DNA of 64,000 bases from Gallionella sp. (GTDB lineage: Bacteria > Pseudomonadota > Gammaproteobacteria > Burkholderiales > Gallionellaceae). The translations under genes were made by a program, and so were the position numbers. Below, piece by piece: positions 1-15,672 of this stretch (position 1 is the first letter of the stretch; every line of letters starts with the position of its first letter). The notes under the pieces are model-generated. The model was given only the letters and a program-made list of their open reading frames with translations. It was not told the origin of the DNA and did no database searches. The stretch is from contig JAUSAO010000083.1 in assembly GCA_030652475.1 (NCBI GenBank), positions 1 to 64,000 on the forward strand. The letters are read 5' to 3'.

Positions 1-129
1 ACAACCATGATTCCAGAGACCGCCATGCCCGCAGCTCGGACAGCGCAGAGGTCGATAGACTTCCGGTTTGCTGCGCAGCGTCTCAATATGTTGGCGAAGG
101 GTGCTGATGCCAGATACAATTCGACTCAT
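1..129 (-). CDS. Zinc-ribbon protein, N-terminal 43 residues only (DUF6431-like, transposon-associated?)
   Basis: The window edge cuts this gene; only its start is present. The reading frame begins at ATG 129 with a GGAGA ribosome binding site about 8 bases upstream. The peptide starts MSRIVSGISTLRQHIETLRS and continues into C30-P-S-C33-G and C43, the beginning of a zinc ribbon. It recalls DUF6431-type proteins found with transposases, but that is from memory and not checked. It lies inside the proposed Tn7-like element and reads away from glmS, so it is either cargo or part of the transposition machinery. Function is unknown. Confidence 0.5.
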   Translation of the reverse strand, partial: MSRIVSGISTLRQHIETLRSKPEVYRPLRCPSCGHGGLWNHGC

Positions 130-770
130 AGGCCGGTCTCCATTGTGCAACGTGAAAAGTGTCAGAACTTCCCACATTAACAGAGGTATATCGGCCTTCT
201 TTACGTTCAGGTTGTCTTGCGATAGTTGCGGTGCGGATTTGACAGGTTCCCTGATAAATCTCGGGATGGTGGAAGCTGGGGAATCTCAGCTATTGAGGGA
301 CATTACAGGTGGTTTCAACCTTGTGATGGAAATGAATAGCGCAACAGTCAGGGACGGCAGCGATAATGCATGACTCATCGTGATATCAATCAGGCTTGTC
401 AGAGTCGGTTAATTTTCAAATCGCCGACCATCCGATGTTCCTTCGTCAGCAGTCGTTCATTTTCGACAGCTGAATAGCAGCTATTGGCACATTGTACTCG
501 CTCGGTATCTCGAATTGCCAGCGCCGAAGCGGTCGCTCAAAGTTAATTGAGCAAAGATAGGTTTGACTGTCGGCATTGGCCTAACTGCTGACATCTGCAC
601 CATTAGCACTAAACTGATTGCATACAGCGCTTGTTCATTTTAGTCAGTGAATTTGCTAATCACAATGCTGCCGATTTTCTCATCAATTTGTGATCGATTA
701 TGCCCTACATGCGAAAGGGGAAAACTTCATTTGCAGGCTAATACCTGCTATGAAATTTGCCCCCTTACTA
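130..770. other. Non-coding stretch inside the transposon end, with a long palindrome
   Basis: No frame in this 640-bp stretch has recognisable protein similarity. A plus-strand frame at 68-373 overlaps the zinc-ribbon gene and has no credible start, so it is discounted. The one clear structure is an imperfect palindrome at about 714-767: arms of roughly 23 bp meet at GCAGG (733-737) and CCTGC (744-748) around a 6-base loop. It has no T-run, so it is not an obvious terminator. Confidence 0.5.
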
Positions 771-824
771 TTTACGACTTTAATGGTTAATTTACGACTT
801 TAATAACCTATTTACGACTTTAAT
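771..824. repeat. Three 14-bp direct repeats at 20-bp period (candidate TnsB sites)
   Basis: TTTACGACTTTAAT occurs exactly at 771-784, 791-804 and 811-824. The copies are spaced one per 20 bp, about two helical turns, so a protein would bind them on one face of the DNA. The last copy ends 11 bp from the proposed transposon terminus. Arrays of about 20-bp sites bound by the transposase are typical of Tn7, Tn5053 and IS21-type ends. Confidence 0.8.
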
Positions 825-859
825 TGTACGGAACAAAGGAACAGAACAGGAACATGTGA

Positions 860-2686
860 TTATTCCACGGTCACAGACTTGGCTAGATTTCTCGGCTTGT
901 CCACGTCGGTTCCCTTCTGCAATGCGACGTAATATGACAGCAACTGCAATGGGATGGTGTGCAAGATGGGACTCAAATATCCTGCATGCTCGGGCATTTG
1001 CAGGATATGTACGCCGTCCGTTTCACGTATATGAGTATCCGCATCGGCGAATACATACAGCTCACCGCCACGCGCGCGGACTTCCTGCAGATTGGATTTT
1101 AGTTTTTCCAGCAGCACATCGTTCGGTGCGACCGATATCACCGGCATATCCTTGTCTACCAGCGCCAGGGGGCCATGTTTCAGCTCACCCGCCGGATAGG
1201 CTTCGGCGTGTATGTAGGAAATTTCCTTCAGCTTGAGTGCGCCCTCCAGCGCAATGGGATAGTGTAGGCCGCGCCCCAAAAACAGGGCGTGCTGTTTGTC
1301 CGCAAAGTGTTCGGCTATCTTCGCAATTTGCGGCTCCAGATCCAGCACCTTTTGTGTTGCGGCGGGCAGATGGCGCAGTGCATGCAAATGCTGTTGTTCC
1401 TGTTCCGGCGTCAGGCGTCCACGCTGCTTGGCCAGCACCAGGGTCAACAAAAACAGCGCAACCAGCTGTGTGGTGAATGCCTTGGTCGAAGCCACGCCGA
1501 TTTCCGGTCCCGCACGCGTCAAGAAACGCAGCTGCGAAAGCCTGATAAGTGCACTTTCTGGCACATTGCAAATTGCCAGTGTATGCGTGTGCCCAAGCGC
1601 TTTGGCATGATTCAATGCGGCCAGTGTGTCCGCAGTTTCACCGGATTGAGAAAGCACAATGACCAGTGCTTTGGGATTGGGTACGCTGGTGCGGTAACGG
1701 TACTCGCTGGCAATTTCTACCGTGCACTGAATACCGGCAATTTCTTCCAGCCAGTAGCGCGCCACCAGACCGGCATGATGGCTGGTGCCGCAAGCCAGAA
1801 TCAGAATGCTGTCTATGCTTTCGAATGAGGCCGCAGCTTCCGCGCCAAAAATCCCCGGAACGATGGATTTACTGTTACAGACGGATTCCAGCGTATCGGC
1901 AATAGCCTGGGGTTGTTCGTGAATTTCCTTTTGCATGTAATGGCGATAGTTGCCCAGCGACACGCTTTCGTTGCTGATTTCACTCACCTGAACCGGGCGA
2001 TCAACCGGATTACCGTCCGCAGCGAATATTTGGTAAGCCAAGCGGCCTACTTCAACCACATCGCCTTCTTCGAGATAAACGACTCTGCTGGTGACCGGCA
2101 ACAGCGCAGAAACATCCGAGGCAAAAAAATTCTCTTCTATGCCAATACCCATCAGCAACGGGCTGCCGCGTCGTGCGCAAATAATTTGATCGGCATTGTC
2201 TGACGCAATCACGCCGATGGCATACGCGCCTACCAGCTCGGTGAGTGCAGCCTGCGTGGCTGCCAGCAAGGTATTGCCAAGCACATAATGGCTGTGAACC
2301 AGATGTGCGATGACTTCAGTATCGGTATCCGATGTAAATTCGTAACCCTCCGCTGTCAGGCGGGTACGTAGTGATTCGTAATTCTCGATAATGCCGTTAT
2401 GCACTACGCCGATCAGATTGCGGCTCATGTGCGGATGGGCATTACGTTCGCTGGGTACACCATGAGTTGCCCAACGGGTATGGGCGATACCGAGCAATCC
2501 CTGCGTATTGGCACTCTTTTCGCTCAGTTCAGCTACTCGGCCATTACTCCGCACACGATCCAGCAGTCCGTCATGTAACACCACCAGTCCGGCTGAGTCG
2601 TAGCCACGATATTCGAGTCGCTGCAATCCTTCCAGCAAGATAGGCACAACATTGCGTTGTGCTACTGCGCCCACGATTCCACACAT
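860..2686 (-). CDS. glmS: Glutamine-fructose-6-phosphate aminotransferase
   Basis: GlmS makes glucosamine-6-phosphate from fructose-6-phosphate and glutamine, the first committed step toward UDP-GlcNAc for peptidoglycan and LPS. The protein has 608 residues, the usual length. It starts MCGIVGAV, with Cys2 as the N-terminal nucleophile of the glutaminase domain (about 1-240), followed by two SIS sugar-isomerase domains (about 285-600). The C-terminus reads [11 protein letters not shown], the conserved segment whose DNA is the Tn7 attachment target. It follows glmU by 73 bp and is probably co-transcribed with it. Downstream DNA appears to have been replaced by a transposon end, so any native terminator has been displaced. 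Confidence 0.97.
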
Positions 2687-8765: not shown

Positions 8766-9299
8766 TCAGGCCAGGGCGTTAGCCATTTCGCCAAGACGGG
8801 TTCGCGCGGAACCATCGATCACTTTGTCTCCGGCACGAATAACAACACCACCTAGCAAATCTTTATTGACTTTACAGACCAGCTTAATTTCGCGCCCCAT
8901 GCGCTTCTTCAACGAGCTGATGATTTTTTCTTGCTGCGCAACTGACAAATCGAAAGCCGAGTCCACAACCACATTAACGGTTTTTTCAGCTTCTGCCCGC
9001 AATGTTTCAAACATAACCGCTATTTCGGGCAATATTTGAAGACGTTGATTTTCGATTAACACCCGCACAAAATTATTAAGTTGATTCGTTGGTTTGCCAC
9101 CTAGCAAACCACTCACCAAACTTTCAAGCTGAGCGGGCGTTACTTGCGGACTGCCGATGATTGCGTGCACTTCGGGATGAGTGACTGCTTCAGCCAGGTT
9201 TACGATGGCTTCAGACCAGCCCTTCAAATCTGCCAGCTTTTGTGCTGCATCAAATGCAGCTTGTGCATATGGCCGTGCTGTAGTTATGGCTTCAGACAT
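8766..9299 (-). CDS. atpH: ATP synthase F1 subunit delta
   Basis: The delta subunit joins F1 to the peripheral stalk. The 177-residue protein starts MSEAITTARPYAQAAFDAAQ, the typical N-terminal helical domain, and ends with the conserved DLLGGVVIRAGDKVIDGS segment and TRLGEMANAL. It starts 5 bp after the atpF stop codon, so translational coupling is likely. Confidence 0.95.
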   Translation of the reverse strand: MSEAITTARPYAQAAFDAAQKLADLKGWSEAIVNLAEAVTHPEVHAIIGSPQVTPAQLESLVSGLLGGKPTNQLNNFVRVLIENQRLQILPEIAVMFETLRAEAEKTVNVVVDSAFDLSVAQQEKIISSLKKRMGREIKLVCKVNKDLLGGVVIRAGDKVIDGSARTRLGEMANALA

Positions 9300-9304
9300 G
9301 ATGT

Positions 9305-9775
9305 TCAGATTTCCGCAACAAGTTTATCGAGCAAGTCGTTATGTGCCTTGGCATCAATTTCACGGCCCAAAATCTTACTTGCGCCCGCCAAAGCGATTGC
9401 TGATACCTGGGTACGCAATTGTTCCTTGGCACGAAACACTTCCTGATCTATTTCAGCTTTGGCGCCGGTGATAATACGATCACCTTCCGTTCTTGCCTGA
9501 TCTTTGGCTGCTTCAATAATTTCGCTGGCGCGCTTTTCACCACCAGCCAGAATGTCAGCTGATTTTTCTTTCGCTTCGCGCAATATTTCTGCAGCACGTT
9601 TTGCAGCCAATTCCAGATCATGCTTCGCGCGCTCGGCATCGGCCAATCCATCAGCTATTTGTTTTTTGCGCTCTTCCAACGCGGCGATGATGGGTGTCCA
9701 GACGAACTTCATGCAGAACCACACGAACAGTGCGAACATGATGGTCTGGGCGAGAAGAGTTGCATTAATGTTCAT
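9305..9775 (-). CDS. atpF: ATP synthase Fo subunit b
   Basis: Peripheral stalk subunit. The 156-residue protein has one N-terminal membrane helix (about residues 5-25, LLAQTIMFALFVWFCMKFVW) and then a long charged coiled coil rich in alanine, glutamate and lysine. Size and pattern match subunit b of proteobacteria. It lies between atpE and atpH in the standard order. Confidence 0.95.
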   Translation of the reverse strand: MNINATLLAQTIMFALFVWFCMKFVWTPIIAALEERKKQIADGLADAERAKHDLELAAKRAAEILREAKEKSADILAGGEKRASEIIEAAKDQARTEGDRIITGAKAEIDQEVFRAKEQLRTQVSAIALAGASKILGREIDAKAHNDLLDKLVAEI

Positions 9776-9817
9776 GCAAGCTACCTTTCCTGAATTGTGC
9801 TATGACGCTTAGGTTAA

Positions 9818-10057
<240 letters not shown>

Positions 10058-10094
10058 TTATTTCTCCTGGTAGTTAAAGTTAAAGTTGATTAAA

Positions 10095-11015
<921 letters not shown>

Positions 11016-11019
11016 CTAT

Positions 11020-11487
11020 CTAAGTCGTTATTCTACTCAAAAACAAGCGCGCTATGATCAGCGCTGCTTGACCTATCACAAAGCCACCCAATACCGCGAG
11101 TGGCGTTAATTTCAGTACTACCATACACAAACCAAGCAGCATCACTACCAACAAAAATCTTTCGATGGCATAAAAATACATGAGCCTTAATTGATGGTGG
11201 GCTTCCTGACTAACTTGCCGTGCTGACCGAGACATTCTCCAGGCCAGTTGTGCTCCATTGAAAACCGATACCGCACCGCCACTCATTAGCGCTATTGCCA
11301 TCTGCGGCGAGCTTTTCAAGCTGTAGGCGATGCCTGTTACCACTAGCGTTACCACCAGTTGCAACACAACCACCTGTCGCGCTATTTTCTTTTCTTCGGC
11401 TTCAACATGCAAAAGCGCCGGAATAGTATCAGCGTTTTCCGGGTGTGTCAAACCCGCTTGTTGCACGTCAACGGTGCCTTTACTCAA
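11020..11487 (-). CDS. atpI: ATP synthase-associated protein I
   Basis: Small membrane protein that assists assembly of the c ring or ion supply. Four hydrophobic segments are visible (about 60-80, 85-105, 125-145 and 145-165 of the longest frame). The start is uncertain. TTG at 11487 overlaps the last codons of parB and gives 155 residues starting with SKGTVDVQQAG. A longer frame starting within parB is less likely. Tight overlap with parB suggests parAB and atp are transcribed together. Confidence 0.8.
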   Translation of the reverse strand: MSKGTVDVQQAGLTHPENADTIPALLHVEAEEKKIARQVVVLQLVVTLVVTGIAYSLKSSPQMAIALMSGGAVSVFNGAQLAWRMSRSARQVSQEAHHQLRLMYFYAIERFLLVVMLLGLCMVVLKLTPLAVLGGFVIGQAALIIARLFLSRITT

Positions 11488-12349
11488 GCTGCCTGCCTTC
11501 TTGCAACTTGAGCAGGAACGCTTCCAGCTGTTCATGACTCGCATATTCGATGACCAGCTTGCCCGAGCCTTTACTGCCCGATTTAATTTCTACCCGCGTT
11601 CCCAGGCATGCGCTTACTTCTTCCTGCAATCTGAGCGTATCCCTGTTCGGCGCTATCCTCTTCTTTGTATTAGCAGGCTCTGCTTCGCGCGTTTGCCGTT
11701 GTACCAGCTTTTCTGCCTCGCGCACTGATAGCTGTTCCTTCACGATTTTGTTGGCCAACAGTATTTGTTGTGCGCTTTCCAGCGGCAACAACGCCCGCGC
11801 ATGCCCCATGTCCAATCTGTTTTCCATCAGCATGTCCTGCACGCCCTGAGGCAGCCTGAGCAGCCTCAGTAAATTACTGGCTGCGCTGCGCGAACGCCCT
11901 ACCGCGTCAGCCGCTGTCTGATGAGTCATCTCGAATTCATCAATCAGCCGCTGTATCCCGATCGCCTCTTCCAGCGGATTCAGGTTTTCACGCTGAATAT
12001 TTTCAATCAGTGCTATTGCCAATGCGGCATTGTCAGGCACGCTGCGCACCAGCACAGGCACGTGGCTCAGGCCTGCAATTTTCGAGGCGCGCCAGCGGCG
12101 CTCTCCGGCAATTATTTCATAGCTTTCATCAATCAACTGGCGCACAAGAATGGGCTGTATCACGCCCTGCGCCTTGATTGAAGCCGCCAAATCCTGCAGC
12201 GCCTGTTCCGCGATGTTTGAACGAGGCTGGTACTTTCCCGGCTTGAGCAATGTGACGCTCAAATCACGCAACACATCATCTTTTTCGCTTTTCCCGCCGG
12301 ACAATAATGCTTCCAGCCCACGGCCCAATCCCTTTGGTGGTTTTGTCAT
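11480..12349 (-). CDS. parB: Chromosome-partitioning protein ParB
   Basis: CTP-dependent DNA clamp that loads at parS and spreads to form the partition complex. The 289-residue protein has the N-terminal MTKPPKGLGRGLEALL tail that binds ParA and the CTPase fold with GERRWRA near residue 115. A helix-turn-helix follows (TAADAVGRSRSAASNLLRLL), then a C-terminal dimer domain. It starts 11 bp after parA. Three perfect parS sites lie in this window. Confidence 0.97.
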   Translation of the reverse strand: MTKPPKGLGRGLEALLSGGKSEKDDVLRDLSVTLLKPGKYQPRSNIAEQALQDLAASIKAQGVIQPILVRQLIDESYEIIAGERRWRASKIAGLSHVPVLVRSVPDNAALAIALIENIQRENLNPLEEAIGIQRLIDEFEMTHQTAADAVGRSRSAASNLLRLLRLPQGVQDMLMENRLDMGHARALLPLESAQQILLANKIVKEQLSVREAEKLVQRQTREAEPANTKKRIAPNRDTLRLQEEVSACLGTRVEIKSGSKGSGKLVIEYASHEQLEAFLLKLQEGRQLE

Positions 12350-12360
12350 ACTCGCCTCCT

Positions 12361-13143
12361 TTAGGCTGACGTTGCGGATTTCGCCGCGTTATTCAATAAC
12401 TCACCGGCCAGCGCCAGATAAGCTTGTGTTCCCTTGGAGGCTTTGTCGTGATAAAGCACGGGAACGCCGTAACTGGGCGCTTCGGCCAGGCGTACATTGC
12501 GTGGAATTACCGTGCGATAGACTTTGCTGCCAAAATGCGCCTGTAGCTGATCGGAAACCTGCTGCGCCAGGGTATTGCGCGGATCAAACATGGTACGCAG
12601 CAGCCCTTCAATCTCCAGAACCGGGTTCAAACTGGCACGCACCTTGCGGATGGTGTTAACTAAATCGCTTAAGCCCTCAAGCGCGTAATATTCGCATTGC
12701 ATCGGGATCATCACCGATTTTGCCGCACACAATCCATTTAAAGTCAATAGGTTAAGTGCTGGCGGACAATCAATCAACACATAGTCATAATTCTCCGCGA
12801 CCAGTTGTAGCGCATCTCTCAAGCGTGTTTCCCGCTGTGAAAAATCAACCATCTCGATTTCTGCGCCCGCCAAATCCCGATTGGCTGGCAGCACATCATA
12901 CTTACCCGTCTCTGATTTTTTTCTGGCCTCGACAATAGTTTTAGTGCCCAACAACACATGGTAGACAGTGATTTCCAAATCACGCTTTTCTATTCCGCTA
13001 CCCATGGTCGCATTGCCTTGCGGGTCCAGGTCGATCAACAACACCCGCTGCTTGGCTACGGCAAGACTGGCGGCAAGATTTACGGTTGTTGTGGTTTTTC
13101 CCACCCCGCCCTTCTGATTGGTAATGGCCATAATTTTTGTCAT
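12361..13143 (-). CDS. parA: Chromosome-partitioning ATPase ParA
   Basis: Deviant Walker ATPase that moves ParB-parS complexes along the nucleoid. The 260-residue protein begins [18 protein letters not shown]; Lys11 and Lys16 are the two Walker A lysines of the deviant motif. DLDPQGNAT and LIDCPPALN match switch regions. It overlaps rsmG by 4 bp (ATGA), so the two are translationally coupled. A chromosomal rather than plasmid copy is indicated by the mnmG-rsmG-parA-parB order. Confidence 0.97.
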   Translation of the reverse strand: MTKIMAITNQKGGVGKTTTTVNLAASLAVAKQRVLLIDLDPQGNATMGSGIEKRDLEITVYHVLLGTKTIVEARKKSETGKYDVLPANRDLAGAEIEMVDFSQRETRLRDALQLVAENYDYVLIDCPPALNLLTLNGLCAAKSVMIPMQCEYYALEGLSDLVNTIRKVRASLNPVLEIEGLLRTMFDPRNTLAQQVSDQLQAHFGSKVYRTVIPRNVRLAEAPSYGVPVLYHDKASKGTQAYLALAGELLNNAAKSATSA

Positions 13144-13811
13144 ATTGCCGATTCTCCTCTAGGCGTTGCAATAACCAAACAGCGCGCCGCATCCAGTCCC
13201 GGTACGCGCAACGGTATGATTTCTTTCATAATACAATCATCCGGCATCCCTGCCAGCTCATTTTCCGGCAAGCCTTTCATGGCGACCCAGCGTCCATGTG
13301 GCGCAATCAGGTGGCGAGTTATGCGCAGAAAATCCCCCAACTCGGTAAAAGCGCGCGAAGTAATTCCGTCAAACTTGTCCGTCGTTTGATATTCCTCAAC
13401 TCTTGCACAACGAACCTGCACATTACGCAGACCCAGCTCGATAATAGCCTGTTGCACAAAACCGGTTTTTTTACTATTGCTGTCCAGCAGGACGAATTGC
13501 CATTCCGGTTGTACGATAGCCAGAACCAAACCCGGCAAACCTGCCCCACAACCCACATCCAGCCAGCGTCCAACTCCCAGATGAGGAATCACGGCCAGAC
13601 TATCCAGCAAATGATGACTGAGCATCTGCTGAGGATCGCGTATCGCCGTCAGGTTATAAACCTTGTTCCACTTTACCAGCAACGCCAGGTAATCGAGCAG
13701 TTTCGCCTGTGTTTCGCTACTGATTTGTATCCCCAGTTGAATAATACCGCGCTCCAACCCTTCGGCTAATGACGTGCGATTATTCAGCTGGCCTGGCATC
13801 ACGAAATCCAC
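13140..13811 (-). CDS. rsmG: 16S rRNA (guanine-527-N7)-methyltransferase
   Basis: Methylates G527 of 16S rRNA with S-adenosylmethionine. The 223-residue frame has the SAM-binding motif [10 protein letters not shown] and a preceding helix region typical of GidB. Two starts are possible: GTG at 13811 or ATG at 13799. The longer one overlaps mnmG by 32 bp and is kept, but the shorter may be real. It lies in the usual mnmG-rsmG-parA cluster. Confidence 0.94.
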
Positions 13812-15672
13812 GTTTTAAATGCACCAATAACAATGAAATAGCAGCAGGCGTAATGCCGGAAATCCGTGCGGCCTGACCAACCGTTTCAGGCTTATATTGA
13901 TTTAGTTTTTGCTGAACCTCTATGGATAAGCCTCGCACCTCGCGATAATCGAGGTTATCCGGTAAATGGAGTGCCTCATTTTGCTCATTTCGATCAATTT
14001 CCTGATTTTGCCGCTCTATGTAGCCATGATATTTAGCCTGTATTTCTACTTGCTCAGCCACTTTTGGGTCGGCTACTCCGACACCGCCCCCCGTCAGGGT
14101 GAGCAAACTGGCGTAGTTCACATCCGGTCGACGCAACAGTTCATACAAGGAATATTCGCGCTCAATATTTTTACCCAGTACACGCTGCGCATCTTCTTCC
14201 GGCAAGTTACGCGGATTCACCCATGTTCGGCGCATACGCTCTTGCTCAATGGCAATCGCTTCACGTTTTTCGTCAAATGCCTGCCAGCGCGCATCATCTA
14301 CCAGACCTAGCTCGCGCCCCTTCTCCGTCAGACGCAAATCGGCATTGTCCTCGCGCAACTGCAATCGATACTCTGCGCGGCTGGTGAACATGCGATAAGG
14401 TTCGGCCACTCCCTGAGTAATAAGATCATCCACCATCACACCCAGATAGGCCTCATCCCGGCGCGGACACCAGGCTTCCTTTTCCTGTACTTGCAGTGCC
14501 GCATTCAGGCCGGCAAGCAAACCTTGCGCTGCCGCCTCTTCGTAACCGGTTGTTCCGTTGATTTGTCCGGCAAAGAACAAGCCCTGGATAGCCTTTGTTT
14601 CCAAAGAACTTTTTAAGCCACAGGGATTAAAGTAATCATATTCAATCGCATAACCCGGTCGCAATATATGCGCATTTTCCAGGCCTTTAATGGAACGAAC
14701 CAGCTCCAGCTGCACATCAAATGGCAAACTGGTTGAGATGCCATTCGGATAAACCTCATGCGTAGTCAAACCTTCCGGCTCAAGGAAAATTTGATGCGCA
14801 GTCTTATCGGCAAAGCGCGTGATTTTATCTTCGATGGAAGGACAATAGCGCGGCCCCACGCCTTCGATAACGCCGGTAAACAAGGGAGAGCGATCCAGCC
14901 CACCACGAATGATGTCATGCGTGCGCTCGCTGGTTTCCGTGATCCAGCAAGGTAATTGTCGGGGATGTTGCGCTGCACTACCCATGAAGGAGAACACCGG
15001 CACGGGGTTGTCACCCGCTTGTTCCTGCAATAAGGAATAGTTGATAGTGCGGCCATCAATGCGCGGCGGTGTGCCTGTTTTCAACCTGCCCACCGGTAGC
15101 TTTAACTCGCGCAAGCGGTGCGCCAAACTGAGCGAAGGAGGATCCCCTGCGCGTCCCGCCTGATAGCTTGCCTGACCGACATGAACCAACCCGGCTAAAA
15201 ATGTCCCTGCGGTCAGCACGACTGTTTTCGAACTGAAGCGCAGGCCGAGCTGGGTGATGACACCCGTGACCCTATCCTGCTCCACCTGTAAATCGTCAAC
15301 CGCCTGCTGGAATAACCACAGATTGGGCTGATTTTCCAGTGCTGTTCGGATGGCTTGCTTGTACAACATACGGTCGGCTTGCGCCCGCGTTGCCCGCACC
15401 GCGTAACCTTTGCTGGAATTAAGGATGCGAAACTGGATGCCGCCCACATCCGTCGCCATCGCCATCGCTCCGCCCAGCGCGTCCACTTCCTTAACCAGAT
15501 GACCCTTGCCTATCCCGCCTATGGAAGGATTACAGGACATTTGTCCTAGCGTCTCGATATTGTGGCTAAGCAACAAAGTTTTGCAACCAGCGCGTGCGCT
15601 GGCCAGGGCCGCCTCGGTTCCGGCATGCCCTCCTCCCACTACAATCACATCGAATACATCAGGAAATTTCAT
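13780..15672 (-). CDS. mnmG: tRNA uridine-5-carboxymethylaminomethyl modification enzyme, FAD subunit
   Basis: MnmG works with MnmE to modify the wobble uridine (U34) of several tRNAs. The start at ATG 15672 ([20 protein letters not shown]) matches the family N-terminus and gives 630 residues; a frame 12 codons longer exists but is not conserved. The GGGHAG dinucleotide fold, the [14 protein letters not shown] segment and the C-terminal [18 protein letters not shown] region are present. MnmE is encoded just upstream, with a parS site between the two genes. Confidence 0.96.

Follow-up and report, generated by a model that had tools for sequence, protein, structure and literature searches.

Tn7 and the glmS-targeting Tn7-like transposons are the described systems closest to the locus studied here. 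In the sections of PMC11406308 drawn on here, the end with overlapping sites appears to be the one nearest the attachment site, the side of the element that faces this site varies between elements, the ends typically finish in TGT/ACA, and TnsE is almost universal in glmS-targeting elements. A 99-base end of prototypic Tn7, used as the query, gave 100% matches in E. coli records. E. coli NZ_CP033762 has the Tn7 end 25 nt beyond the glmS stop, adjoined by tnsA, and the sites in the E. coli Tn7 end have offsets of 9, 29, 50 and 70 and thus a pitch of 20-21 bp. We analysed a stretch of 64,000 nucleotides from Gallionella sp., hereafter the window, in which an initial annotation had recognised a Tn7-like transposon at glmS. 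Relatives lend support to the family, to the position and to the view of the repeats as transposase sites; the element itself is very probably decayed here and without its tns gene set. We consider it very probable that the window feature is the glmS-side end of a decayed glmS-targeting Tn7-like element, a relic in this genome.

The window contains an intact glmS (860..2686, minus strand, 608-aa ORF), the 3' end of which is the attachment site and the stop codon of which occupies 862-860, as had been annotated. The glmS-side transposon end (771..835, minus strand) has its terminus at 835, from where it reads TGTTCC away from glmS, and 24 nt separate the glmS stop from this terminus, in agreement with the TGT-type end described before. 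Three exact copies of the 14-bp repeat TTTACGACTTTAAT, all on the plus strand, are located at 811..824 (repeat 1, nearest the terminus), 791..804 (repeat 2) and 771..784 (repeat 3), which bears out the three transposase-site-like repeats of the initial annotation; their 20-bp pitch across 771-824 resembles the site spacing of the Tn7 right end. The terminal TGTTCCGT occupies 828..835 (minus strand), and the outermost repeat lies 11 nt from the terminus, a distance shared with many relatives. When up to 2 mismatches were allowed, TTTACGACTTTAAT had 3 matches in the 64 kb against 0.35 expected, none of 100 shuffles contained three such matches, and the only exact copies in the 3.06-Mb assembly were the three of the window. 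A site on contig C48 (up to 2 mismatches in 15 bases) was dismissed as noise; the reversed control pattern gave 5 matches compared with one such site. Moreover, the first 28 bases of the window end aligned to the glmS-side end of E. coli Tn7 with a score of 11, whereas letter shuffles had a mean score of -6.1 and none of 20,000 scored as high. The window end lies at the fixed position just past the glmS stop, and its TGT terminus with an array of closely spaced TnsB-type sites on the attachment side fits what PMC11406308, in the sections drawn on here, describes for the att-side ends of Tn7-like elements.

GTDB contigs were scanned for pairs of the exact repeat separated by six bases, which gave 33 stretches, two of them from one genome (L026, L036). 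Their titles gave betaproteobacterial genera or groups, the named genera being ones that we take to be Betaproteobacteria, or only Proteobacteria/Pseudomonadota. A glmS gene pointing at the repeats was present in 29 of the 33, and the distance from the last repeat to the glmS stop was 32-39 nt in 22 (35 nt in the window) and 53-55 nt in 4, the remaining 3 having 12, 144 and 644 nt; the 4 stretches without glmS included one cut by a contig end (L027). The termini read ATA in 23 stretches (22 by script, L028 by eye) and ACA in 8, and were ambiguous in L049 and not readable in L027. As a separate observation, genomes G021, G063 and G078 (L079/L087/L092 and L097/L100/L103) carried the same end repeats and a shared interior within differing non-glmS flanks, as judged by eye, with a weak TniQ/TnsD match in L097 and L103; this is possibly a sister element with another target.

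Among the 158 genomes of the window's family, exact repeat pairs occurred in 5. The 25-base end pattern, with up to 2 mismatches tolerated, was present in 18, and 8 of these had an end beside glmS; in G076 and G077 a 96-97% identical GlmS was encoded next to the same kind of end. TnsD (PF15978) was matched in 11 of these genomes, 10 above the cut-off, and the window genome had no match. Few of the 18 end-bearing genomes have a TnsD match (G017, G034 and G045 above the cut-off, G048 with one weak broken match), so that an end commonly occurs without one, owing to decay or to incomplete assemblies. The same scarcity would also suit repeats that belong to the host, as terminator or regulatory sites of the glmS 3' region and not as a transposon end, and so would the hairpin-forming stretch just inside the end (715..766, plus strand, -22.3 kcal/mol in the window), which is common to four other genus members and precedes the repeats in all five. 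The hairpin consensus over these five members has 17 pairs, 3 with changes on both sides; the covariation term of +0.36 is no support, and we claim no RNA function. The parA loci speak against a host feature. A parA match was present in 39 of 76 genus genomes, and 12 of the 30 parA loci examined had glmS within a flank of roughly 1.5 kb; in L145, L150, L151 and L162 parA and glmS lie 23-40 nt apart (spacing read by eye), without the repeats. The other 18 loci had no glmS in the flank, and some had far ends beside parA (L135, L136, L137, by eye). In addition, the ends in G021, G063 and G078 lie away from glmS, and matching 5-bp duplications surround the elements of G017 and G034. Element-free sites and the duplications already contradict the host-feature reading, and we give it practically no credence.

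TnsA was searched with 33 handles, of which G045 and G160 were the same contig; L027, L036, L049 and L051 were left out by locus, the genomes of three of these being covered by L026, G076 and G034. A TnsA match was found for 18 of the 33 handles, 16 above the cut-off. Seven genomes, G017, G034, G045, G165, G171, G172 and G182, chosen for TnsA and an end on one contig, were analysed at length (G178 also has both on one contig and is not among the seven). In all seven loci tnsA, tnsB and tnsC are located away from glmS and run toward it, followed by a second TniQ and TnsD in the opposite direction, then cargo, the end and glmS; the TnsD match of G034 covers residues 150-589 only, the N-terminal domain being missing. 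TnsA, TnsB, TnsC and TnsD of E. coli Tn7 matched all seven stretches, and Tn7 TnsE gave no match in them at E 0.01. Long stretches of G076 and G077 had the glmS-side end and no tns match. In G017, Pfam recognised TnsA, an AAA ATPase, TniQ and TnsD (TnsD E 6.9e-94), the TnsB frame had no Pfam match and hit Tn7 TnsB in PDB at 4.9e-37, and the best PDB matches of its TnsA, TnsB, TnsC and TnsD were all Tn7 proteins. These relatives, which have tnsABC, TniQ and TnsD, share with the window the end repeats and their approximate distance from glmS, and support the reading of the TTTACGACTTTAAT repeats as putative TnsB sites.

The G017 element, of about 23 kb, has AGTTG on both flanks and abuts an older single-site end, and the G034 element, of about 31 kb, has GCCGC on both flanks and a far terminus TAG (by eye). 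With 2 mismatches allowed, G165, G171, G172, G182 and G045 showed no distal site. The G017 cargo comprises type I restriction genes, a phosphonate-type transporter and a 2-hydroxyacid dehydrogenase, the neighbours of which passed the NCBIfam PhnC and PhnE models; we infer that this dehydrogenase may be a phosphite dehydrogenase, NCBIfam giving no family above the cut-off for the protein. The cargo of G045, G171 and G172 includes GmrSD-like, HEPN, PLD and OLD/AriA-like proteins (8 ORFs scanned, 2 without a Pfam match).

Several loci showed more than one end. Back-to-back ends were present in L090 (G076:C102) and L078 (G017), with 5 and 4 bases between them, and suggest that one attachment site was used repeatedly; the junction contig stretch of G076, as fetched, had no glmS match. 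G046 and L024 each have two ends no more than about 82 and 430 bp apart, of which the outer has a single site. In L141 (G074) and L157 (G016), by eye, and in L098 (G045:C21), by tblastn, a second, short fragment similar to the glmS 3' end was observed close to parA or to an end; these fragments are perhaps duplicated attachment sites.

In the window, the interior at 314..714 is decayed and has no recognised gene. When 300-714 was compared by blastn (E 0.05) with the tns-bearing stretches of relatives that had been fetched, no tns DNA was detected, and the best E value of tblastn for tns in 1-860 was 0.42 among the matches listed, the TnsD result not being among these. The repeat at 1..313 is shared with contig C119 at 97% identity, C119 starting with the same 310 bases as the window, and is the probable cause of the contig break. 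On the side, a stretch of 28-30 bp at 308-336 recurs at 8 further places of the genome (97-100%), three of these copies beginning 113 bases from the start of a contig, and looks like the edge of a dispersed repeat; 482-603 matches C22:64406-64528 at 83%, a segment that adjoins an ORF pair, toxin-antitoxin-like by eye, which is also in the glmS element of G077.

In G077 parA is directly beside the far end, and its orthologue in the window genome (99%) is located on contig C116, which ends 2.0 kb past it. The terminal 423 bases of C116 are single-copy in the assembly and encode the C-terminal part of a DUF6431 protein, the N-terminal piece of which is the 59-aa ORF at 1..177 of the window (minus strand; DUF6431 by the name of plasmid homologues, nothing convincing in Pfam); two DUF6431 homologues have four residues between the pieces, which corresponds to about 11 nt missing if there is no indel. 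Because the two pieces would make up one DUF6431 frame, C116 probably adjoins the window inside this reading frame, although C119 has the same 310 bases at its start; if C116 and the window are joined, the parA-glmS distance would be about 2.9 kb, with no tnsABC in this interval. On C116, the part from parA to the DUF6431 frame holds a probable far end, inside it 40 bp that match the interior of the G077 element, an IS3 transposase piece and a PIN/Phd toxin-antitoxin pair. At the probable far end, TATTCAGATCAAT upstream of parA equals the outermost 13 bases of the G048 end and then diverges (by eye). The same part of C116 also contains an 88-bp piece of tnsD (87.5%, E 4e-24), a 5' fragment with the start region that soon runs into a stop.

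The initial annotation had expected tnsA-tnsB-tnsC and a glmS-targeting tnsD to the left, a far end with a second copy of the repeats, and AAGGA beyond it. No tnsABC was found at the end of C116 or at that of the window, and the tnsD fragment is all that the putative left flank offers of these genes; a degenerate far end is probably there, and no second end within 2 mismatches exists in the assembly. The letters AAGGA are present beside the terminus (836..840) and remain an unconfirmed candidate for the 5-bp duplication, the 5-mer outside the probable far end being CCAAT instead. A left side with neither tns trace nor far end had been named as the outcome that would speak against the annotation, and the tnsD fragment and the degenerate far end narrowly depart from it. 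The two 5-mers of the window genome differ, and therefore the far end and the glmS-side end may stem from different insertions; the 5-mers flanking the G077 and G076 ends differ as well. Because a 5-bp target duplication (CCAAT vs AAGGA) and tnsA, tnsB, tnsC and TnsD inside the element (the 88-bp fragment only) were both looked for in the window genome and not found, the feature was filed as a relic. Nevertheless, the same two results also count against our preferred explanation: no matching 5-bp duplication in the window genome, G077 or G076, and no tns gene besides the tnsD fragment in the window genome.

A rival reading is that the element is complete in the organism: C116 would not be joined to the window, and the assembly would lack the DNA that bears tnsABC, TnsD and the far end. 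The window does start at a contig break in the repeat shared with C119, in an assembly of 146 contigs, and the glmS-side end is intact with its three exact sites. C116, however, carries the very parA that adjoins the element in G077, its single-copy terminal bases continue the same DUF6431 frame, and TnsD had no match while TnsA and TniQ were matched only in comM, at an estimated completeness of 99.5%. We therefore regard a complete element as unlikely, although a missing tns-bearing contig is conceivable with 146 contigs and 4.9% contamination.

Within the assembly, TnsA and TniQ were matched solely in an element that lies inside comM on contig C109 (L014, G000:C109:55000-74999, at about 8806-14568), with TnsA, TnsB with a Mu-type C-terminus, TniB and TniQ. 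It adjoins the C-terminal part of a comM-type Mg-chelatase gene, and nearby ORFs look restriction- or defence-like by eye. These tns genes were rejected as the missing genes of the glmS end; they lie beside comM and with other end-like repeats.

Under the relic reading, an element of a glmS-targeting Tn7-like family present in Betaproteobacteria would have inserted between parA and glmS in an ancestor. TnsD would have bound the glmS 3' end and TnsC would have been recruited, and TnsA and TnsB would have cut and joined the element about 24 nt past the stop, with the closely spaced TnsB sites facing glmS. In the later decay tnsABC and most of tnsD may have been lost, insertion sequences and the toxin-antitoxin pair may have come in and the far end may have degenerated, the glmS-side end with three perfect sites surviving. 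Alternatively, the end could have been kept in a non-autonomous element that a tns-bearing relative still moves in trans, as might be imagined for G077, where far end and glmS-side end are 5.8 kb apart with no tns match between them (the intervening ORFs resemble cation-efflux and toxin-antitoxin genes, by eye only); the far end is degenerate in the window genome and the flanking 5-mers mismatch both here and in G077, and we hold this to be highly improbable. A further idea, speculative and doubtful in our view, is that the surviving three-site end of the relic binds the TnsB of incoming relatives and keeps a Tn7-type target immunity on the glmS site. If this were true, relic ends would be scars that block re-insertion at glmS; in G017 and G076 a further end immediately adjoins a single-site scar, as might be expected if blocking required several sites, and G046 and L024, too, have two ends close together.

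The analysis describes a group of glmS-targeting Tn7-like elements whose loci were seen in Gallionella-type genomes, Rhodoferax, Polaromonas, Janthinobacterium and Undibacterium. In this group tnsABC are distant from glmS, TniQ is paired with TnsD and TnsE is not detectable; the loci whose cargo was examined (G017, G045, G171, G172) carry defence, restriction or phosphonate-type genes. As the window illustrates, an end can still be recognised at a glmS site from which the transposition genes have disappeared. Attachment-site scars can therefore serve as a record of past insertions. Taken alone, the window is of modest significance: its feature is real, yet as a trace of a mobile element of known kind it is fairly ordinary.

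Literature searches naming the genera or the cargo found no paper. The C109 element of the window genome resembles Tn6022-like elements in comM in lying beside a comM-type gene, and differs from the window end in its target and its end-like repeats; TnsF and TnsE mark Tn6022 in the sections of PMC10293859 drawn on here. The differences from Tn7 are that tnsABC lie away from glmS and run toward it in all seven relatives examined, whereas Tn7 tnsA adjoins glmS and runs away from it, that the relatives have a second TniQ, that Tn7 TnsE has no tblastn match in their seven stretches, that many of their termini read TAT/ATA, and that the tns genes are gone from the window genome. The main text of PMC10293859 contains the term betaproteobacteria 0 times and, in the sections drawn on here, does not single out this group or its gene order. 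The likeness to Tn7 consists of the terminus beyond the glmS stop (24 nt in the window, 25 nt in E. coli Tn7), the TGT terminus with several sites at a pitch of 20 bp compared with 20-21 bp, the site core ACAAT(T)AAAGTC(G/T)TAAA, and the homologues of TnsA, TnsB, TnsC and TnsD in the relatives. Further, the tandem tniQ/tnsD genes in 1,048 surveyed loci, as reported in the sections of Faure et al. 2023 (PMC10293859) drawn on here, have the same arrangement as in the relatives described above.
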